NCBI GenBank assembly: GCA_903851365.1
Contig: CAINOB010000059.1
Coordinates: 1-64,000 of the forward strand
Length of the DNA: 64,000 bases
DNA from: an uncultured Bacteroidota bacterium
GTDB taxonomy: Bacteria; Bacteroidota; Bacteroidia; Bacteroidales; UBA12481
Direction of reading: 5' to 3'
The notes under the pieces are model-generated. The model did not search any database. It saw only the letters and a list, made by a program, of their open reading frames with translations, and was not told the DNA's origin. The position numbers were made by a program, and so were the translations under genes. Below, one piece after another: positions 19,844-51,521 of this stretch. Every line of letters begins with the position of its first letter. Position 1 is the first letter of the stretch.

Positions 19844-19891
19844 ATTATCAAATTATCAAATTGTCAAATTATCAAATTAGCACATTGGCTA
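19844..19891. repeat. Octamer tandem array (ATTATCAA-type) abutting/overlapping the prfB stop
   Basis: attatcaa|attatcaa|attgtcaa|attatcaa|attagcac|attggcta; prfB stop is 19889-19891. Confidence 0.9.
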
Positions 19892-22209: not shown

Positions 22210-23091
22210 ATGAAAAAGATATTGTCCCTATTAGTTGTCTGCGTTGCAATGCTGTCGTGCACGGAGCAAGTTACAAAACCCGATTTTACGTTTGCGTTTT
22301 TGACCGACATTCACATTACGCCGGACAAGAGCGCGCCGATTGGATTTCAGCAGGCCATTGACCATGTGAACAGTTCGAAAGTCGATTTTGTGATTACGGG
22401 CGGCGACCAGGTCATGGATGCCCTCAATAAATCGCGCGCCGGGGCCGATTCGCTGTATCAGCTGTACAGCAGCCTGATGAAGGGTTTTAAGATGCCGGTT
22501 CACAATACCGTTGGCAATCATGAGCTTTTTGCATTTTACAATAAATCCATCGACACCCTGGATCCGGACTATGGCGAGGGGATGTTTCGACGCTACTTTG
22601 GTAATCCATGGCAATCATTTGATTACAGAGGATGGCATTTCATTCTGCTTAAATCGATTGAGCAAACGCCTGACCGTCATTACGAAGGCAAGATCAATCC
22701 GGTGCAAATGGAATGGCTGAGGCAGGATCTGGCAAAAGTGGATGATAAAACGCCTATCGTGGTATCAGTTCATATACCACTTATCACCGCATACAACCAA
22801 TGGCAGGAGGGCGGTCAGCAGGTTAATGGTGCCGGCTCAGTGATCACGAACGGCAAAGCAGTGATGGACCTGCTTCGGAAGAAAAACCTGAAGCTGGTAC
22901 TGCAGGGACATCAGCATTATTATGAAGATCTGTTTATGGATGGAGTTCATTTCATTACCGGCGGGGCTGTTTCTGCCGGATGGTGGGGCGGCGCAATCGG
23001 CAAAATGGAAGAAGGATATATGCTGATCAAGGTCACTGGCGATAAGATGGAGACGGAGTATGTTGATTATGGTTGGAATGCGAGGAAGTGA
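22210..23091 (+). CDS. Metallophosphoesterase lipoprotein
   Basis: MLSCTEQ lipobox; FLTDIHI, ITGGDQVMD, VGNHE, LQGHQHYY motifs. Confidence 0.9.
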   Translation: MKKILSLLVVCVAMLSCTEQVTKPDFTFAFLTDIHITPDKSAPIGFQQAIDHVNSSKVDFVITGGDQVMDALNKSRAGADSLYQLYSSLMKGFKMPVHNTVGNHELFAFYNKSIDTLDPDYGEGMFRRYFGNPWQSFDYRGWHFILLKSIEQTPDRHYEGKINPVQMEWLRQDLAKVDDKTPIVVSVHIPLITAYNQWQEGGQQVNGAGSVITNGKAVMDLLRKKNLKLVLQGHQHYYEDLFMDGVHFITGGAVSAGWWGGAIGKMEEGYMLIKVTGDKMETEYVDYGWNARK

Positions 23092-23315: not shown

Positions 23316-23347
23316 ATCTGAAACCCTGAAACTCTGAAACATGAAAC
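23316..23347 (+). repeat. Octamer array containing the start codon of the next gene
   Basis: atctgaaa|ccctgaaa|ctctgaaa|catgaaac; ATG start at 23341. Confidence 0.8.
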
Positions 23348-25557
23348 ACTTAATCTCATTAACCTTCCTGGTCATCCTGCTTACTGCCTGCCAGCCAGGC
23401 GATCAGCAGACAAACATTTTCCGGATACCCGGAATGTCAGTCAATGTTAGCGGTTCGGGTGAGATTTCCCGGATTGAGTTTACCGGAAAAAATCAGGCCC
23501 GTGAGGTCCGGGCCCTAAGCAGTCTGGCCGATTGCAAGCCCGAAGGAAAGATCAGGGTAATACGCAAGGTTACGCAGATCAGCTTTAAACAAAAATGGGT
23601 GTCACTCTCAACAGGAAATTCCTGCACACTTACCAACCGGTTCAGTCCGGGAAAAGGCAGTGTAAAATGGGAAATCGAGATTACCGGCATTAAAGGTACC
23701 TGGTCAACACCCATTGAGACGAGGTTGATATATCCCGATTCTGCGAAAGCTAAAATTTGGACCGCCTGGGGAGATCCGCGATTAGGTACCATACGTAAAC
23801 AATCCGCTGAGCAGATAGCATCGCTGGGTATTTTACCTTCGGATATTACAGGCAACTGGAGCGACCCGCTGGTACCGATCCCATTTGTCAATGATACTCT
23901 CTGGTACGGCGCTCCGCCATATAGTTATAATAATCCTCGATTAGGTTTCTGCCCCTTTCAGGGCAACCTTTTCGGCATTCCAATGGTATCGGTACTGGAA
24001 GAAGGATCGGGTTTCGGCATGAGCGTGATCTTATCGCCCGAGGATACCCTCCTCGATCTGAATTTGCGCACCAGTACTTCAGGGGAATTGGTTTTCTCAA
24101 GGGAATATAACAGGATATCAGCAGGCAAAACCATTCATTTTTCGATGGATATTGTCGCCCACGAAGCCAGCTGGCGAGGCGGATTGCGCTGGATGACAGA
24201 AAATTATCCCGGATATTTCAACCCGAATATTGAACTCGCAGATCAGATTGCTGGAACCGGGGCCTATTCATCGCTCGAAACGGCGTTTGATCTGAATAAG
24301 ATGAAAAAGATGGCGTTCGGAGTCAACTGGAAGGCCAGCTTCGATTTTCCATACATGGGAATGTTTATTCCTCCTGTTTTAACTGATACAACCCGCTGGC
24401 CGAGATTTGGCGGCGGCATCACATCTATCAGGGATATGCAAGTATATGCTGCAAAAATGAAAAGCCAGGGATTTCATGTGCTGAGCTATTTTAACGTAAC
24501 CGAATTCGGGGCCGGAATCACGGACCCTGCTCCACCCGCTAAAATAGTGGCAGCGCAGGATCTCTGGCGAAATGCCGACAATTTTTTATACGGGAAACTG
24601 GCCGATGCGATCCTTCACGTGCCAGTGGCAGTATCAAAAGAAAAACTCGCATTCTATCCAAAGTCCAGGCCAAACGGGCCCTATTTCACCTGGGGCAACG
24701 GGATCATCATGGATCCGGGCGAGCCGGTTTATCAGGAATATTTAATGGACCAGGCCAGAAAACATATCGAGAAAATCCCTGATGCAGAGGGAATCTGCAT
24801 CGACAGGATGGATTGGCTCAGGATGTATAACGAGCAGCGCGATGACCAGGTGAGTTGGTTCGGCAATAAGCCTACCCGGTCGCTCCTGATCTCCTGGCAC
24901 AGTCTGCTTAACCAGCTCGGGCCGCTGATGCACAAGGCCGGAAAAGCAATCTTTATCAACAATCATGATAAGCGCATTGATCTTCTCAAACAGACCGACG
25001 GATTTTTTGATGAATTCACTTATGGCGGATCACCATTGAACCTGACGGCGCTTATGGGGGTTCGGAGGCCGGTGCTGGGCTGGACGAGTGAGGAAAAAAA
25101 TCTGAGGCCCGATCCCGATGCATTCTTCCAGCGATATCTTTACTTGGGAGTCTATCCGATGGCCCCGTTCCCCGGCAATGATCATTCCTTGCTGCCAAGT
25201 GAATGGGTGGACAAGCAGTATCTCGATTATGGCCCGATGCTGCAGACCCTGAAGGGTAAAAAGTGGGTTCTGGAACCGGATTGCATCTTGGCGGAAGGCA
25301 AATCGGCCAAAGTAAATTTATTTAAAACTCACGACGGTTGGGTGATTCCGGTTGTTTTTGGACCCAAAGAAGGATCTGTTAACCTGATTATCAAGAAGGT
25401 GGTTGGAATGAATGGAACGCTCCGGGCGGAGGTCCTTTACCCGGGAACCGATAAGCCGACGGAGATCGCGATTAACCAGGCGGCTGATGTGATCAGGCTT
25501 GCCGTACCTTTACACAGAGGATGTGCGATAGTGAGGCTTGTGACAGGTGACAGGTGA
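23341..25557 (+). CDS. Putative TIM-barrel glycosidase lipoprotein
   Basis: LLTACQPG lipobox; GICIDRMDWLRMYNEQRDDQVSWFG, FINNHDKRIDLLKQTDGFFDEFTYGG, barrel-like. Confidence 0.55.
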   Translation: MKHLISLTFLVILLTACQPGDQQTNIFRIPGMSVNVSGSGEISRIEFTGKNQAREVRALSSLADCKPEGKIRVIRKVTQISFKQKWVSLSTGNSCTLTNRFSPGKGSVKWEIEITGIKGTWSTPIETRLIYPDSAKAKIWTAWGDPRLGTIRKQSAEQIASLGILPSDITGNWSDPLVPIPFVNDTLWYGAPPYSYNNPRLGFCPFQGNLFGIPMVSVLEEGSGFGMSVILSPEDTLLDLNLRTSTSGELVFSREYNRISAGKTIHFSMDIVAHEASWRGGLRWMTENYPGYFNPNIELADQIAGTGAYSSLETAFDLNKMKKMAFGVNWKASFDFPYMGMFIPPVLTDTTRWPRFGGGITSIRDMQVYAAKMKSQGFHVLSYFNVTEFGAGITDPAPPAKIVAAQDLWRNADNFLYGKLADAILHVPVAVSKEKLAFYPKSRPNGPYFTWGNGIIMDPGEPVYQEYLMDQARKHIEKIPDAEGICIDRMDWLRMYNEQRDDQVSWFGNKPTRSLLISWHSLLNQLGPLMHKAGKAIFINNHDKRIDLLKQTDGFFDEFTYGGSPLNLTALMGVRRPVLGWTSEEKNLRPDPDAFFQRYLYLGVYPMAPFPGNDHSLLPSEWVDKQYLDYGPMLQTLKGKKWVLEPDCILAEGKSAKVNLFKTHDGWVIPVVFGPKEGSVNLIIKKVVGMNGTLRAEVLYPGTDKPTEIAINQAADVIRLAVPLHRGCAIVRLVTGDR

Positions 25558-25624
25558 CGGGTGACCGAAGAAGAAGACCGGTAGACGGAAGACGATAGAC
25601 GAAAGACAGTAGGCAGAAGAAAAT
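25541..25624 (+). repeat. Heptad tandem array overlapping the 3' end of the preceding CDS
   Basis: tgacagg|tgacagg|tgacggg|tgaccga|agaagaa|gaccggt|agacgga|agacgat|agacgaa|agacagt|aggcaga; stop TGA at 25555. Confidence 0.95.
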
Positions 25625-35611: not shown

Positions 35612-35656
35612 AGTTAGGTTATTAGGGTAAAAAGTTCCAGCTTAGATTCGTGGCTT

Positions 35657-35687
35657 GCGACGGGGTCCCGGCTTTCGCCGGGATGAC
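35657..35687 (-). repeat. Palindromic repeat (copy E)
   Basis: gcgacggggtcccggctttcgccgggatgac. Confidence 0.95.
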
Positions 35688-35706: not shown

Positions 35707-35783
35707 CTGCCGACTGCCGACTGCCTACTGCAGACTCTACCGGTCTTCTTTTTCGGTCACCCGTCACTTATCACCCGTCACTG
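35707..35783 (-). repeat. Heptad array (11 units in continuous register) overlapping the stop of the S15 peptidase gene
   Basis: ctgccga|ctgccga|ctgccta|ctgcaga|ctctacc|ggtcttc|tttttcg|gtcaccc|gtcactt|atcaccc|gtcactg; stop at 35778-35780. Confidence 0.95.
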
Positions 35784-37616
35784 TTTAACTGCTTTTGCAT
35801 ATGCATCCGGGCCCCCGATAATCGGCATGACCAGCGAGGTTGCATCCGCATCGACAGTCAGCTCAGTGCCTGGCTCGGGCCAGAGCGTAAAGTCACGGTC
35901 ACTGGAGAAAATCATTAATCCGATCTGTTTCCCGGCCGGGATAATCTGGTCGTCGGGCTCGAGATTAAAGGTCATCTCATAGAACTTTCCGGGTACCAGC
36001 GGTTCACTCTCTCTCAAAGATTTATAATTCTGAGGATCGGCCCATCCCCTGGTGATCAGGTTATCAGTGATTTTGGCATTTCTGGCACCATTCCAAGGCA
36101 ATTCCACCAGATACACCGAAAGGTTGGCTGCTGGTTTGCTACATGCTAACCTGATGGTAATTGACGAGGTTCCGGAGAGGTGAACGTCTTCCTTAAGAAC
36201 TGGTGAAAGGTATATCAGGCGATGATTGGTCCATTCGGCCTGAGCCAGTGCCGTGCCGTTAAAGGAAACGTTATCCACGAATTTCTCTTTCCCCTGATTT
36301 GGCAATTGCACTGTGGTAAGCTCACCTGCTTTAGGAGATCCTGGTTTCAGGTAAAATTTTACCGGTCGGGCTTCAGGATTTGGAAAATCAGCATAGGGAG
36401 TAGGCTTGCTGTTATCGTCGTTTTCACGAACGATATAAGCTTTAGGTCCTTCGAGACAATCATTTGCCACTCCAAAAAGGAAATGCGCAAACCACTTATT
36501 CATCATCTCTGCCGGCGGTTCCCCACCATGGCCGCCCTGGGTATAATAGATTTTTGTTGGTAAGCCTTTGGCTTTTACCGCCTCATATATCCTTAGACTA
36601 TGTTCCGGTACCACATTCCAGTCATTGAATCCGTGGGCCATCAGCATAGCACACTTCATAGGACCCAGGTCGTTTATATAATCACGTCCGGCCCAGAAAT
36701 CGTTATAATCCCCTTTAACGCGGTCCTGACCTTTTGCCATTTCACCATTTTTTACAACAGAATCGCAATAGGCACAATGCTCGGGGTTGCTGTGTATAAA
36801 ATCATATAATACATCGATATCTTCACCCAGATATCCACTTGGAGACCGGACCAGTCCGTTGGTACGATAATAATGATAATAGGAAGTATTCGGTGCAATA
36901 GGAATGATCACTTCAAGACCTGCAACACCAGTGGTAGCTGCAGCCAGTGGAAGTGTGCCATCATAGGAAGTACCTGTCATTCCCACCTTGCCAGTAGTCC
37001 AGTAAGCAAATACCTGCTCATTTCCATCAGGGGTAGTATAACCCTTGGCGCGACCGTTCAGCCAGTCGATGACAGCTTTCGGAGCCAGTGATTCGTTATC
37101 ACCTCCAACAGTCGGACAACCCTGGGAGAGACCTGTTCCCGGAGATTCGGAGTGAACAACGATATATCCCTGTGGAACCCAACGGCCAACCTGTGCCTTT
37201 GAGATTACAGGACGTTGTATCCGCGGAACGATCGGAGGAAACTTCTTGCGCGGCACGGGTACAGAATTCAGTTCCTGGCGCGGATTCCAGAAATACTGCA
37301 AGTCACTGGTCCCGGTACCTGAAAAGTATGGGCTGGATTCATAAATCACTGGAAGCTTCAGCTTTTCCGTTTCCGTCTGCTTTGGCCGGGTAACATCAAC
37401 GTGGACCCGATCGAGTTTACCGTCACCATCCGTATCAAAGCTTGTTTCAACCCACAGGTCCTGAATGATCCAATCGGCAGGAATATTAAATTCCGGAACT
37501 ACCTGGGTCATTCCATCGGCAAATACCGGCCCGGCTTTCTTTTGTGCCCTCGCCTCCTGAATTCCCAGGAAACTGACTGTCGCGGCGATCGCCATCAAGC
37601 AGAATACTTTCTTCAT
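35778..37616 (-). CDS. Xaa-Pro dipeptidyl-peptidase (S15 family, CocE/NonD-like)
   Basis: YIVVHSESPGTGLSQGCPTVGG, GKVGMTGTSYDGTLPLAAATTG, YYTQGGHGG, and C-terminal X-Pro DPP beta domain (LSGTSSITIRLACSKPAANLSVYLVEL). Confidence 0.92.
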   Translation of the reverse strand: MKKVFCLMAIAATVSFLGIQEARAQKKAGPVFADGMTQVVPEFNIPADWIIQDLWVETSFDTDGDGKLDRVHVDVTRPKQTETEKLKLPVIYESSPYFSGTGTSDLQYFWNPRQELNSVPVPRKKFPPIVPRIQRPVISKAQVGRWVPQGYIVVHSESPGTGLSQGCPTVGGDNESLAPKAVIDWLNGRAKGYTTPDGNEQVFAYWTTGKVGMTGTSYDGTLPLAAATTGVAGLEVIIPIAPNTSYYHYYRTNGLVRSPSGYLGEDIDVLYDFIHSNPEHCAYCDSVVKNGEMAKGQDRVKGDYNDFWAGRDYINDLGPMKCAMLMAHGFNDWNVVPEHSLRIYEAVKAKGLPTKIYYTQGGHGGEPPAEMMNKWFAHFLFGVANDCLEGPKAYIVRENDDNSKPTPYADFPNPEARPVKFYLKPGSPKAGELTTVQLPNQGKEKFVDNVSFNGTALAQAEWTNHRLIYLSPVLKEDVHLSGTSSITIRLACSKPAANLSVYLVELPWNGARNAKITDNLITRGWADPQNYKSLRESEPLVPGKFYEMTFNLEPDDQIIPAGKQIGLMIFSSDRDFTLWPEPGTELTVDADATSLVMPIIGGPDAYAKAVKQ

Positions 37617-37709
37617 AGTTTGATATTTAAGATTATCTAAAGATCAGTAATATTTCAATTCAGTGAATAGGTAAGGGTCCCATTCCCGAGTTCGCGAGAG
37701 CAGGTTTTT

Positions 37710-39656
37710 TCATCGGGATAACAAAGCAAAATCGATCATAGCTTCAAGGTTGATAGCACTCTCCCAGGGACGGTACCTAGTACCATTCGGCTGGCCATTG
37801 AGATAGTATTCTGACCATGCTCCATTCTGATCGGCCATGGAAAGTGTTTTATTATATTGGGCCAATGATTCTGGCAGATGCAGCCTGGTCAAAGCTGTCA
37901 ATAAAAAGCCATAATCATACCCAACCGTTCGGTTTTCCTCCTTTTGATGTGCAATTTCCACGACAGCCGGTTTTAACACATCATAAGGCATTAAGCTGAA
38001 ATTCATATAAAATGGTTCCAAAGCCACCGACAGAAGATTATAAGTTCTCGCAACAACCCGAGGCAATGGGCTCGTAGTGATGCAGTTTGCACAAACATAA
38101 CGGTCGTTTTCATTGCGTTCGGTCCAGACAATTCCGCCATACTTTTTCATGAGGCAGTCGGGACCGGCAGCTTCGCATACGCCATGCCTGTATCTTGGTA
38201 ATTCGGCCACTTTTGCTCGTTCGGGATTGTTGGTCATCAAAGATCCATTGTGCCAGAAGTTTTTTTTAAAGTTCGATTTTACGCGCTCGACCAATGCCCT
38301 GTTTTTTGAAATTTCCTGGGCTGGCCTGAGCTTCTGTCCGGCCACCCAATCCAGATATTTTTGCCCGCTTTCGATAAAGAGCATGGTGGCTTCGGCTGAG
38401 CCGTCATTGAGCGCTGATCGAGGCACCATTCCACCGGCAACATAAGTTTCATCACCATTGAAAGGCAGCATATCGTTGACCAGGTGTTTTCTCTGACTAT
38501 TAAAAGCCCATTCGAGCATCGGATTAATTTTTGCCAAAAAGGCATTATCCCTGGTGGCATTTAACAAATCGAAAGCCTGAAGGATAAGGTAGCCGGTAAT
38601 CTCCACCTCATCATTTTCGTGTATGTGAAAAATCCCCTCTACCCCGATCGCCTGTGCATTATGAATATATCCGTACTTTTTCCAGATTTCCCAATAGAAA
38701 TTCAGTATCGACCTTGCTTCATTATACAAACCCAGAGCCAGCAGACCTCTGGATACTCCATATTGATCGCGGACATAACCCAATGGATACGGATAACCCG
38801 CAAGTACGGCACCTTGAATGCTCTGTTGGGTTTTCAGGAGAACAGCAACATCATCTATCGTTTGCAATAACTTTGTTCGTGAAGGTGCTGAAGAGGGGAG
38901 CAAAGTGTTAAAATCTTTCCTCTCCTGTGTGAATTTTTGCCAAAAAGCAGTTGTCCTGGTCAAAATCTTCTCCGGAGTTGATCCCAATATCTGCTTCGTA
39001 TTGTTCATTACGTCGGGATATTCAGGCCCACCGATCAAACAGATCGTGCTCTCACCCCGATCGCAGGTTATTTCGATAATCCCAGAATCAGGAATCCTTG
39101 AGATTTTCGCTTTTCCTGTCACAATAAGTTCGCTGTAAAAAATCCTGGGATAAACATAAGTCTGATAAATCGTCGACCCTGATGGCAAACTAAACAGGAT
39201 CCCGCTTGCTGCCCTGCCAGATTTCAATTGGTTGGAATTGTCGGTTACCTGAAGGTTTTTAGCCAATTTTAACCGAAACACTATCTGGCTCTGTGCATTC
39301 ACTTTCCGCAAAAAACAAGGGGTTTCAGCATCAACGAAATCAATCAGGCTGGCTATTTCTGAAGTACCGGCAAAAAAATTATGGGTCCATATAGCAGTTC
39401 CGGTCTGCCGCACAGACTGCGACTCAGCACTGGCTCCTTTTACCCATTCCGCGGTCAGAAATGAAGGTGAAGAATAGGGCCCTGTGTAGGCTGCGATAAT
39501 ATCCGGACCTTTTTCATAGATGCACATTTTACCGTTTCCGAGGGACTGCACCGCGCCAGGATCTTTGGAAACAGGTTGGGAAAAAGAAGGGAATGAAGAG
39601 ATTAAAAGGAGGAAAAATAAAAGCAGCTTTGCCCGGTTGACACTGCTTTCGATCAT
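37710..39656 (-). CDS. Exported six-hairpin (GH15-like) glycosidase
   Basis: Signal MIESSVNRAKLLLFFLLLISSFPSFSQ starting at 39656; GYPYPLGYVRDQYGVSRGLLALGLYNEA, toroid-like repeats. The ORF-track start at 39734 lies in repeat DNA. Confidence 0.65.
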   Translation of the reverse strand: MIESSVNRAKLLLFFLLLISSFPSFSQPVSKDPGAVQSLGNGKMCIYEKGPDIIAAYTGPYSSPSFLTAEWVKGASAESQSVRQTGTAIWTHNFFAGTSEIASLIDFVDAETPCFLRKVNAQSQIVFRLKLAKNLQVTDNSNQLKSGRAASGILFSLPSGSTIYQTYVYPRIFYSELIVTGKAKISRIPDSGIIEITCDRGESTICLIGGPEYPDVMNNTKQILGSTPEKILTRTTAFWQKFTQERKDFNTLLPSSAPSRTKLLQTIDDVAVLLKTQQSIQGAVLAGYPYPLGYVRDQYGVSRGLLALGLYNEARSILNFYWEIWKKYGYIHNAQAIGVEGIFHIHENDEVEITGYLILQAFDLLNATRDNAFLAKINPMLEWAFNSQRKHLVNDMLPFNGDETYVAGGMVPRSALNDGSAEATMLFIESGQKYLDWVAGQKLRPAQEISKNRALVERVKSNFKKNFWHNGSLMTNNPERAKVAELPRYRHGVCEAAGPDCLMKKYGGIVWTERNENDRYVCANCITTSPLPRVVARTYNLLSVALEPFYMNFSLMPYDVLKPAVVEIAHQKEENRTVGYDYGFLLTALTRLHLPESLAQYNKTLSMADQNGAWSEYYLNGQPNGTRYRPWESAINLEAMIDFALLSR

Positions 39657-39761
39657 TCTTCCGTGTTTCGCGTTTCGTGTCACGTCTTCCGATATTCTTC
39701 TTCGTCTATCGATCTTTCTTTCGTCACCCGTCACTTGTCACCCGTCACTTGTCACCCGTCA
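39657..39761 (-). repeat. Heptad array (15 units in continuous register) spanning the gap between two same-strand genes
   Basis: tcttccg|tgtttcg|cgtttcg|tgtcacg|tcttccg|atattct|tcttcgt|ctatcga|tctttct|ttcgtca|cccgtca|cttgtca|cccgtca|cttgtca|cccgtca. Confidence 0.95.
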
Positions 39762-40656
39762 CATATTTCTGAAACTCCTCGGCAATTTTGGCGGTCTTAG
39801 TGTCGCCGCTATGAACCAGAACACGATACTTCATATGGAGCGCATCACCCTTTTTAAAGGTTGTTCCCGCGGTTTCATCGGCTGGCCAATACATGGGTGT
39901 CGGTGAAAAAAATCCATAATCGCGTGTAAACCAAGGTGACGGATACCATGGATTGGATGGATGCTGGAGAATTGCCATGCCTTCGGTTTTTCCGTTGCGA
40001 GTTCCATAGCAGTCCATCCAAGGTGATTTTTTCCCAAAGGTGCCATTATCCCCTGTCTCGCCACTGTTTCCTTCGGCATTCACAGCCGTACCACCATTCA
40101 CCACCGAAAGATCTGGCGCCATGCGGCCGCTGAAGAAAGAGTGGTTGGTCTTCTCGATTTTTACGTCCATGAGAATATCCAGGCGAATATCAAAATCGAT
40201 TTGATAGAGATCCTTGTAAGGAGCTGTGATCGTGATCAAACGAACATCACGGATAGGAGATTCAGCCCCGGGCCGGCTCCAGATACATTCGTTGGCAATC
40301 ACCACTGAGTCTTTGCCTGACTTCAGGATTTCAGCCCTGAGGGTGCGTATCCTGCCCCTGTCGATCCCTTCCTGCCAATAATTGCCGCCATTTACCCTGT
40401 CGCAGCCAAAAAATAGAGAACTATGGTGTGGATAGAGGCTGTTCCTCATCGAGGTAACACTAAAACCGGATGGTCCGTTTACCGGGAAGAAAAACGGATA
40501 CTTTTCGTCTTCCGAAAAGATGTATTGGGTAAAGAGGTTGTCCTTGATTGATACATCGATACGATTACCAACCTTTACTGCAGTTACCTGTGAATGAGAG
40601 GCAAAGCTGGTCAAAAGCAACATGCCTGAAAGGCAGGCAAGTGAACAAAGTTTCAT
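39745..40656 (-). CDS. DUF6807/PmoA-like exported protein
   Basis: SMRNSLYPHHSSLFFGCDRVNGGNYWQEG, HPSNPWYPSPWFTRDYGFFSPTPMYW; paralogous to 18808..19827. Confidence 0.8.
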   Translation of the reverse strand: MKLCSLACLSGMLLLTSFASHSQVTAVKVGNRIDVSIKDNLFTQYIFSEDEKYPFFFPVNGPSGFSVTSMRNSLYPHHSSLFFGCDRVNGGNYWQEGIDRGRIRTLRAEILKSGKDSVVIANECIWSRPGAESPIRDVRLITITAPYKDLYQIDFDIRLDILMDVKIEKTNHSFFSGRMAPDLSVVNGGTAVNAEGNSGETGDNGTFGKKSPWMDCYGTRNGKTEGMAILQHPSNPWYPSPWFTRDYGFFSPTPMYWPADETAGTTFKKGDALHMKYRVLVHSGDTKTAKIAEEFQKYVTGDK

Positions 40657-49834: not shown

Positions 49835-51496
49835 ATGAAAACAAAGAGAATTGCTGGCTTGATCCTGCTGTTCTCATGCAGCATGATAGCTTTTAGCCAG
49901 AATAAAGGAGTTAAAACCATTACCGAAGGAGAGCTTCGTTATCACCTGGGCTTTCTGGCCTCGCCGGAGTTTCGGGGCAGAATGAACCCTTCAGCCGAAC
50001 TCGATATTGCCACGGTCTATCTCGGTAACTGGGCTAAGAATTCCGGACTAACACCCCTCTTTCCGGATGGATCTTACTATCAGCCCATACCCACGAAAGT
50101 TTCCTGTGTTTCAGAACCCAATACCCGCCTCCGTATCATTAATAGTAAAGGTGAGCAGGTATATTATTACAGGAAATCTTTTGGTGGTAATTTTTCTGTT
50201 TCCGGCAGTTACAGTGGAGAAGCCGTTTTCATCGGACTGGGAATAACCAATACTGAAAAAGGTTGGGACGACCTGAAGGACATCGATTTATCGAACAAGA
50301 TGGTTATCCTGTTGGATGAGCCCATGCCTGGCCAAAAAACAGAGCTCGGATCCACCTATGCTTACCGGTTAAGCTCACGGATCAGCCTTATCCGGGAAAA
50401 AGGGGCAGCCGGCGTTCTTGCAGTGATACCCCCAGAGCTTGAATCAAAACACAGTCATGGTGTTAATATTTTTGACAGGATACCCAGCGGCCGGATGACG
50501 GATTATTTCGATACCCAGCGCAGGGGTACGCCTCCGGCGACTGCCACCCAGAATCAGCCGCAGCAACCTGTCCGCAGGCCTTCGCTCCCGTTCGGACAAG
50601 CCGCAGTGAGCCATGATCTCGCTGCAGCTATCCTGGGAATTTCCGTTGAAGAGGTTGGCAAAATGTTTCAGACTATCAGGCAGGGGATTGAAGTACCCGG
50701 TAAAATAGTGACTGGTACAACAATCCAGTTGAATGTTGAAATCGAAAACCAGGACCGGACTTCACGAAATGTTATTGGTATGATTCCCGGTTCCGACCCA
50801 AAACTTAAGGATGAATATATTGTGGTCTGTGCGCATCACGATCATCTGGGAATAAGCGATGGGCAAGTCATTGCGGGTGCCGATGATAATGGTACCGGAA
50901 CCGTGGCACTTCTTGAAATTGCCCAGGCCCTTATGACTGAGAGGCCAAAACGATCTGTAATTATTGCCTGGTTTACCGGTGAAGAAGAGGGCATGAACGG
51001 ATCGCACTTTTTCGTGAATAATTGCCCGGTTCCCATCGAAAAAATCAGCGCCTGCCTCAACCTCGACATGTTGGGCCGGAACAATACCGACAGCCTGTAC
51101 CTGGTGGGATCTAACCTGTTGAGCTCCGAACTCGATGCTTCCATCCACAAGGTTAATACGCAATCAGGAATCAATTTCGGATTCAATTACCTGTATTCCA
51201 ACCTCACACATCCTCAGCGGGTTTATTTCCGAAGCGATCATTATCCATTCATCCGCTTTGGCATCCCCTCTGTCTGGATCTTTTGCGGATTTACTCCGGA
51301 TTACCACACGCCCCGGGATATTCTGGAATTCATTAATTATCCCAAATTTCTGAAAGTCACTAAACTCACTTATCTCACGGCTTATGAGATTGGGAACAAA
51401 CCTGAATTATTAAAACTGGATGTTAACCCGGAGGTCAAGTCGCGCGGCAAGCATAATATGCAGACAAGGAGCCTTTTTGAGAATGTTAAGCAATAG
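49835..51496 (+). CDS. Exported M28-family metallopeptidase
   Basis: VVCAHHDHLGISDGQVIAGADDNGTGTVALLEIAQAL, AWFTGEEEGMNGSHFF, FRSDHYPFIRFGIPSVWIFCG. Confidence 0.95.
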   Translation: MKTKRIAGLILLFSCSMIAFSQNKGVKTITEGELRYHLGFLASPEFRGRMNPSAELDIATVYLGNWAKNSGLTPLFPDGSYYQPIPTKVSCVSEPNTRLRIINSKGEQVYYYRKSFGGNFSVSGSYSGEAVFIGLGITNTEKGWDDLKDIDLSNKMVILLDEPMPGQKTELGSTYAYRLSSRISLIREKGAAGVLAVIPPELESKHSHGVNIFDRIPSGRMTDYFDTQRRGTPPATATQNQPQQPVRRPSLPFGQAAVSHDLAAAILGISVEEVGKMFQTIRQGIEVPGKIVTGTTIQLNVEIENQDRTSRNVIGMIPGSDPKLKDEYIVVCAHHDHLGISDGQVIAGADDNGTGTVALLEIAQALMTERPKRSVIIAWFTGEEEGMNGSHFFVNNCPVPIEKISACLNLDMLGRNNTDSLYLVGSNLLSSELDASIHKVNTQSGINFGFNYLYSNLTHPQRVYFRSDHYPFIRFGIPSVWIFCGFTPDYHTPRDILEFINYPKFLKVTKLTYLTAYEIGNKPELLKLDVNPEVKSRGKHNMQTRSLFENVKQ

Positions 51497-51521
51497 GCAG
51501 TCGGCAGTTGGCGGTAGGCAG
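51494..51521 (+). repeat. Heptad array beginning at the stop codon
   Basis: TAGgcag|tcggcag|ttggcgg|taggcag; stop TAG at 51494. Confidence 0.9.

Follow-up and report, generated by a model that had tools for sequence, protein, structure and literature searches.

Mosaics of the BIME/REP type are ordered composites of repeats located at gene 3' ends. Heptameric repeats are over-represented in several bacteria and have no accepted explanation. G-rich heptads, GGGAATC in Xanthomonas and GGGGA(C/T)T in Nostoc, were described by Rehm et al. 2015 (PMC4692102); they are intergenic and transcribed, lie by preference on the sense strand and at most 50 nt from a stop codon or over it, and their function was not found (PMC4692102). 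Direct repeats of a single word, TAACTGA, are intergenic in Beggiatoaceae, mostly just before start codons, and were proposed as translational sites (MacGregor 2015, PMC4679880); they are also present in some Bacteroidetes, with other heptamers alongside (PMC4679880). Cyanobacteria carry the STRR heptanucleotide repeats (Mazel et al. 1990, as cited in PMC4692102).

The window analysed here is a stretch of 64,000 nt from contig 59 of a 5.23 Mb genome which, among named genomes, is closest to MAGs of uncultured Bacteroidetes. It contains a repeat array that fills the gap between two genes, and the analysis of this array turned a one-gap curiosity into a genome-wide rule on gene ends in an uncultured bacterial group.

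Structure of the array and of other arrays in the window

The 88-nt gap separates two minus-strand genes and is repeat DNA throughout. Indeed, the repeats begin at the base beside the ATG (39656), span the gap and cover the last 18 nt of the upstream coding sequence, stop codon included. The components of the locus are as follows:

39745..40656, minus strand: upstream gene of the DUF6807 family (Pfam PF14100, 2.1e-59; orthologs), with a 3' end made of the array
39721..39762, minus strand: six GTGACRR heptads with spacers GG, AA, GG, AA, GG and GA (from the sequence and TRF)
39684..39720, minus strand: GA-rich module AAGAAAGATCGATAGACGAAGAAGAATATCGGAAGAC, 37 nt, without a 7-nt register and with a weak 20-nt period
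39657..39683, minus strand: GTGACAC GAAACGC GAAACAC GGAAGA, roughly three heptads from a different class, up to the base that adjoins the ATG
37710..39656, minus strand: downstream gene, GDE_C-like (amylo-alpha-1,6-glucosidase-like; weak GDE_C match), with its start at or inside repeat DNA

Identity at lag 7 over the 105-nt array is 55/98, a value matched by none of 20,000 shuffles, and TRF independently identified a tandem repeat at 39722-39762. This identity reaches 25/35 in the GTGACRR part (42 nt) and is weaker in the remaining 63 nt (27/56, P = 0.008); in a 43-nt stretch spanning the GA-rich module, it is 13/36 at lag 7 versus 13/23 at lag 20. The GA-rich module is dispersed in the genome, where it usually lies 3' of GTGAC arrays. 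The GTGACRR heptads encode the last five residues of the DUF6807 protein, VTGDK, and its TGA (39745-39747), located in the third unit. The initial annotation had counted fifteen heptads in unbroken register, which is an overcount since the GA-rich module (39684-39720) has no such register; about nine to ten heptads are recognisable. Its main observation holds: the array fills the gap exactly, with repeat DNA over all 88 nt from the base beside the ATG, and this is beyond chance. It was also correct in including the stop codon of 39745..40656 in the array, but the first unit begins at 39762, one base further than it had proposed.

Several other arrays are present in the window:

35754..35777, minus strand: second GTGACRR-class array, TGACGGGTGATAAGTGACGGGTGAC, which starts where the S15 peptidase gene (35778..37616) has its stop codon
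23088..23136, plus strand: GTGACRR array with the upstream gene's TGA in unit 1 (offset -4)
25540..25567, plus strand: GTGACRR array holding the stop codon in unit 3 (offset -18; protein tail VTGDR)
51496..51509, plus strand: GGCAGnn array beginning in the TAG stop codon of the upstream gene (offset -1)
19849..19886, minus strand: AATnTGnn octad array beginning 2 nt past a TAG stop codon

The array at 25540..25567 is followed by an AGACnnA array at 25583-25610. No match to the Rfam covariance models was obtained in the window at gathering scores. Sites of REP-like palindromes or hairpins were observed at about 35620-35660 in the window, at about 2790-2840 in L072, a related locus described below, and in many 3' flanks. 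Furthermore, octads of the GAAACnCT type end at start codons in the window (23320-23341) and at two other loci (offsets -1, -1 and 2; n = 3), a placement opposite to that of the other classes and seen in three cases only.

Flanking genes and ownership of the array

The GDE_C match of the downstream gene scores 20.7 bits, slightly below the Pfam cut-off of 21. In Loclat_bin-16290 (L071), the DUF6807 protein is 92% identical and its gene is followed by that of S15 peptidase, with no GDE gene; the same composite array follows DUF6807 and runs straight into the S15 peptidase gene, broken by insertions (GTGAC units, GACGAAAGATCGAAAGACGAAGAAGAAGATCGG, ACACGTGACACGAA, CGCGAAACACGGAAGAAT). L072 (Kiruna3_bin-0623), apparently genome G001, has the GDE gene together with a short array, after which comes a REP-like palindrome. 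No array was found at this locus in L073 and L074. Because the array persists in L071 without the GDE gene, it is tied to the end of DUF6807, and these comparisons indicate that it forms the tail of the upstream gene and not a start signal of the downstream gene. The emphasis that had been placed on the downstream gene is therefore not retained, all the more since arrays are anchored genome-wide to stops and not to starts.

As the array fills the gap and the next gene starts at its edge, initiation of this gene would take place inside the repeat DNA or at its border, as had been deduced previously from the same anatomy. The proposed start at 39656 is sustained in one respect, as a signal peptide follows the ATG, but not in another, as this ATG is not conserved in G001, where the only starts of the open frame are a GTG within its own array or a TTG within the signal peptide. 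The ATG is thus a plausible start, yet not a conserved one. As part of the explanation developed below, which as a whole has about an even chance of being correct, the adjoining start would be a by-product of the short intercistronic gap.

A separate observation concerns gene content: the GDE_C-like gene between DUF6807 and S15 peptidase is present here and in G001 and absent from L071 and L074, and its gain or loss falls exactly beside an array (window 35778-40656).

Arrays at stop codons across the genome

Genome statistics were obtained from 1.25 Mb of the 5.23 Mb (24%) with a home-made gene caller, and one genome was used per species. At a score of at least 12, 0.86 Mb contained 87 lag-7 and 55 lag-8 segments, versus 0, 8, 11 and 3 for lags 5, 6, 9 and 10. 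About ten classes were distinguished, with units of 7 nt (GTGACRR, GGCAGnn, GGCAnAA, AGACnnA, GGTnTCn, CGnAACr) or 8 nt (GGGCArnA, AATnTGnn, GAAACnCT, GGTGAGGA). These classes were defined after viewing the data and sorted by eye, a bias avoided by a motif-free anchoring test, in which 58 of 145 period-7/8 segments start between -20 and +10 nt from a stop codon, versus 13.1 expected from random non-coding placements (binomial P ~1e-23). No overall excess of arrays was found near start codons. Arrays are carried by 75 of the 808 called genes (~9%, about 1 in 11).

The stop codon is frequently supplied by the array itself. Indeed, (i) the stop offsets of GTGACRR arrays are -4 (seven genes), -11 (four) and -18 (five), that is, the TGA lies in unit 1, 2 or 3, a distribution expected if a TGA-bearing 7-nt unit is entered in any frame; (ii) GGCAG arrays use TAG in 10 of 10 cases, versus 23% usage in the genome; and (iii) GTGAC arrays use TGA in 20 of 22 cases, versus 28%. 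Unrelated proteins are thereby given common C-terminal tails (VTGDK, SDK), by which annotation may be misled. A role of VTGDK-type tails at the protein level was considered and is unlikely, since all three frames are used.

The arrays run in the sense of the gene, and their sense strand is purine-rich (A 0.36, G 0.29). The sequence GTCACNNGTCACNNGTCAC occurs 89 times in the genome and not once read backwards; among the seven members of the genus that were compared, six have it frequently, as does one further genus of the family. Neither tandem nor convergent gaps are depleted of arrays. Of 11 tRNAs, several of which end in intrinsic terminators, none has an array beginning at its 3' end, a comparison of low power.

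Beyond this genome, stop-anchored arrays with other units (AGGATAA, AGGTTAA) are present in G034, from another family of the order, and stop-anchored TGATGTGA octads in G007. Array density varies, since contig C345 of G006 has almost no arrays. No GTGAC array was found genome-wide in G002 (same genus, 2.6 Mb), nor any 7/8-nt array in 39.6 kb of it, and this genome constitutes a natural control for the role of the arrays.

Pairs of GGGCArnA or GGCAnAA arrays were also encountered in inverted orientation, about 100 nt apart, and could form long hairpins:

contig C85, 20164-20314 and 22389-22535 (L058): inverted array pairs
contig C85, 111835-111978 (L062): inverted array pair
contig C62, 116536-116672 (L052): inverted array pair
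contig C18, 45283-45426 (L037): inverted array pair

Class turnover and core conservation

At orthologous stop codons, the array class differs by species, and the stop codon often changes alongside. In this comparison, apart from profile-matched genes, the genes are what we take them to be from reading their sequences. At the end of the ROK kinase gene, GTGACRR units are found in G000, G001 and G006, CGTGACA-type units after TAA in G004, GTGAAAC in G005 and GGCACAA after TAA in G007. The cytochrome oxidase I gene ends with GTGACRR in G000 and G001, CGTAACA in G006 and GGAGGTGA-type octads in G005, and has no array in G007. The gene ending at 25540 carries GTGACRR with TGA in G000, GGCAGTC with TAG in G001 and G006, and GGGTGAA with TAA in G005, and the gene ending at 23088 carries GTGACRR in G000 and G006, GTGAAAC-type units in G005, GGATGAC in G007 and no array in G001. 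Besides these arrays, the isopropylmalate isomerase orthologs L126 (G005) and L119 (G007) have C-rich low-complexity tails, HPHLHPHP and DYTQPNP, which from their sequences represent another kind of gene-end replacement.

Where the class is kept, its units are unequally conserved. In ten ungapped ortholog pairs, which were aligned by eye and selected for the presence of a GTGAC array in both members, a choice that favours conserved cores, 5 of 185 core positions changed, versus 26 of 74 spacer positions (Fisher 1e-11; 17 of the 26 spacer changes are transitions). The fourfold sites of the same genes are nearly saturated (316/652 changed). These alignments show, for the GTGAC class, a conserved 5-nt core and a variable 2-nt spacer. 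At least some arrays are inherited, as spacers differ at 35% of positions versus 53% expected for independent draws (P = 0.0015). Neighbouring spacers, 87% of which are RR, are identical in 14 of 63 cases versus 14.0 after shuffling; adjacent spacers being no more alike than shuffled ones, there is no sign of fresh slippage, and neighbours are not more alike than distant units, as they would be in a simple slippage microsatellite.

Possible role and origin of the arrays

The location of the arrays, their sense orientation, their supply of the stop codon, the turnover of their classes and the contrast between core and spacer are observed features. The explanation that we favour, to which we give about as much credence as to all others together, is that the arrays are a constrained sense-strand 3'-end element with a putative reader, the window array being the stop-anchored one at the end of DUF6807. 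The array would act in the transcript just past the end of translation, as a purine-rich sense-strand 3'-UTR element; short cores at a 7- or 8-nt pitch would be contacted by a putative RNA- or transcript-associated factor, and would be maintained by selection. Since neither 7 nor 8 is divisible by 3, translation entering an array of a stop-holding class in any frame would terminate in three units or fewer, and arrays could in this way take the place of native gene ends. This explanation is consistent with (i) the array after DUF6807 in L071 despite the missing GDE gene, (ii) the motif-free anchoring and the GTGACRR offsets, (iii) the class-specific stop codons and their change together with the class, (iv) the order core, spacer, fourfold sites in rate of change, with spacers lacking signs of slippage, and (v) the purine-rich sense strand and the ordered modules. 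However, no reader was found; some ten classes per genome and class switching are hard to reconcile with one sequence-specific factor; the alignment of the pairs was made by eye, and the pairs were selected for their arrays; the same class could have originated repeatedly and independently; and the system is dispensable, G002 lacking GTGAC arrays and, in 39.6 kb, any 7/8-nt array. Array-bearing 3' flanks also fold no more strongly. A wider reading is more tentative and somewhat improbable: a general 3'-end element in these Bacteroidota, made of short tandem cores every 7 or 8 nt, which replaces native gene ends, brings its own stop codon and exchanges its classes while position and spacing stay fixed, and which would have a dedicated reader, an RNA- or transcription-associated factor.

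Among the candidates considered, anti-Shine-Dalgarno pairing of the arrays is no better than that of shuffled sequences. For Rho, YC dimers number 3.9 per 100 nt in sense, 16.4 in antisense and 11 in flanks, a difference that the purine skew itself produces and that adds no evidence of its own. Single-RRM proteins were rejected as reader, as two to three copies are present in all genus members, including one without GTGAC arrays; none was found in G009, which has arrays and a genome only 80% complete.

The alternative that survives best, although clearly less probable, is that the arrays are a neutral by-product of mutation (slippage, R-loops or single strand left exposed as ribosomes come off the transcript), by which purine-rich arrays of 7/8-nt units would arise again and again at gene ends, their sharp edge being due to selection on coding sequence, which trims them at the stop codon. 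It would account for different classes, or none, at the same orthologous stop, for sense purine richness such as R-loops would give, for the indifference to tandem and convergent gaps and for a 14-nt duplication pattern in the window array; it fits poorly with cores that hardly change beside nearly saturated fourfold sites, with neighbouring spacers no more alike than chance and with classes that share one core genome-wide.

It is rather unlikely that the arrays belong to a composite mobile repeat, a BIME-like mosaic of array, GA module, further heptads and REP palindrome copied into 3' ends, with the stop codon region as landing site. The modules do follow a fixed order, GTGAC preceding the GA module (14:2), AGAC (8:0) and GGCAG (5:0), with REP last; REP-like hairpins follow 24% of arrays versus 5% of controls, and near-identical composites occur at unrelated genes. 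However, many arrays stand alone, without other modules. In 3' flanks, the final position after the arrays tends to be taken by REP-like palindromes (GTCATCCCCGCGAAAGCGGGGACC type) and by another repeated hairpin (GTAGGGGAGGACCCGTGAGTCCTCCC type).

A role as fail-safe stops, whereby stop-holding 7/8-nt units are kept because they give extra stops in three frames, is quite improbable: a TGA is present in every GTGACRR unit, and TGATGTGA, GGTGAGGA and AGGATAA units are also stop-bearing, but the stop-anchored classes GGGCArnA and GGCACAA hold no stop, conservation of the core extends to the G and C on either side of TGA, and in a survey of eubacteria additional stops were not under selection (PMC6764699). 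The weakest reading is that of the initial annotation, in which initiation of the downstream gene is controlled by the array, as the site of its promoter or ribosome-binding region; the array does abut the ATG and contains in-frame GTG codons, but its persistence in L071 without that gene, the genome-wide anchoring to stops and the non-conserved ATG make it most improbable.

Stop pinning, a conserved core, a free spacer, the use of three frames and species-specific classes together lead to sharp predictions. Functional arrays would constitute a 3'-UTR signal of a new kind, whereas neutral ones would mark a repeat-generating process tied to translation termination.

Comparison with known repeat systems

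Among described systems, the ordered composites at 3' ends, often with REP-like palindromes after the arrays, recall BIME/REP mosaics, whereas the main component here is a direct-repeat array overlapping the stop codon and not a palindrome. Like the cyanobacterial STRR (Mazel et al. 1990, as cited in PMC4692102), the arrays are tandem 7-nt units dispersed in a bacterial genome, with different sequences. They share with the TAACTGA repeats the heptameric direct-repeat form in intergenic DNA, but they sit at stops, only the GAAACnCT class (three cases) being near starts, and the TAACTGA word is absent among the classes detected in the genome sample. The heptads of Rehm et al. are likewise 7-nt tandem units (cf. 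the lag-7 excess), on the sense strand and near or over the stop codon (58/145 versus 13.1 expected here). In contrast to those heptads, the present arrays comprise about ten classes including octads, supply the stop codon, change class between species at orthologous stops and belong to a different phylum. Furthermore, GTGACRR is not quadruplex-forming, as its unit has no runs of three or more G: the GTGAC core with its RR spacer gives at most GGG across the unit join and no regular G-tract per unit, and AA and AG spacers are common. No paper describing stop-supplying, class-swapping arrays in Bacteroidota was found in a literature search made mostly outside subscription journals. In summary, stop-proximal heptads are already known from Xanthomonas and Nostoc, and the stop-supplying, class-swapping arrays of these Bacteroidota are a variant of them.
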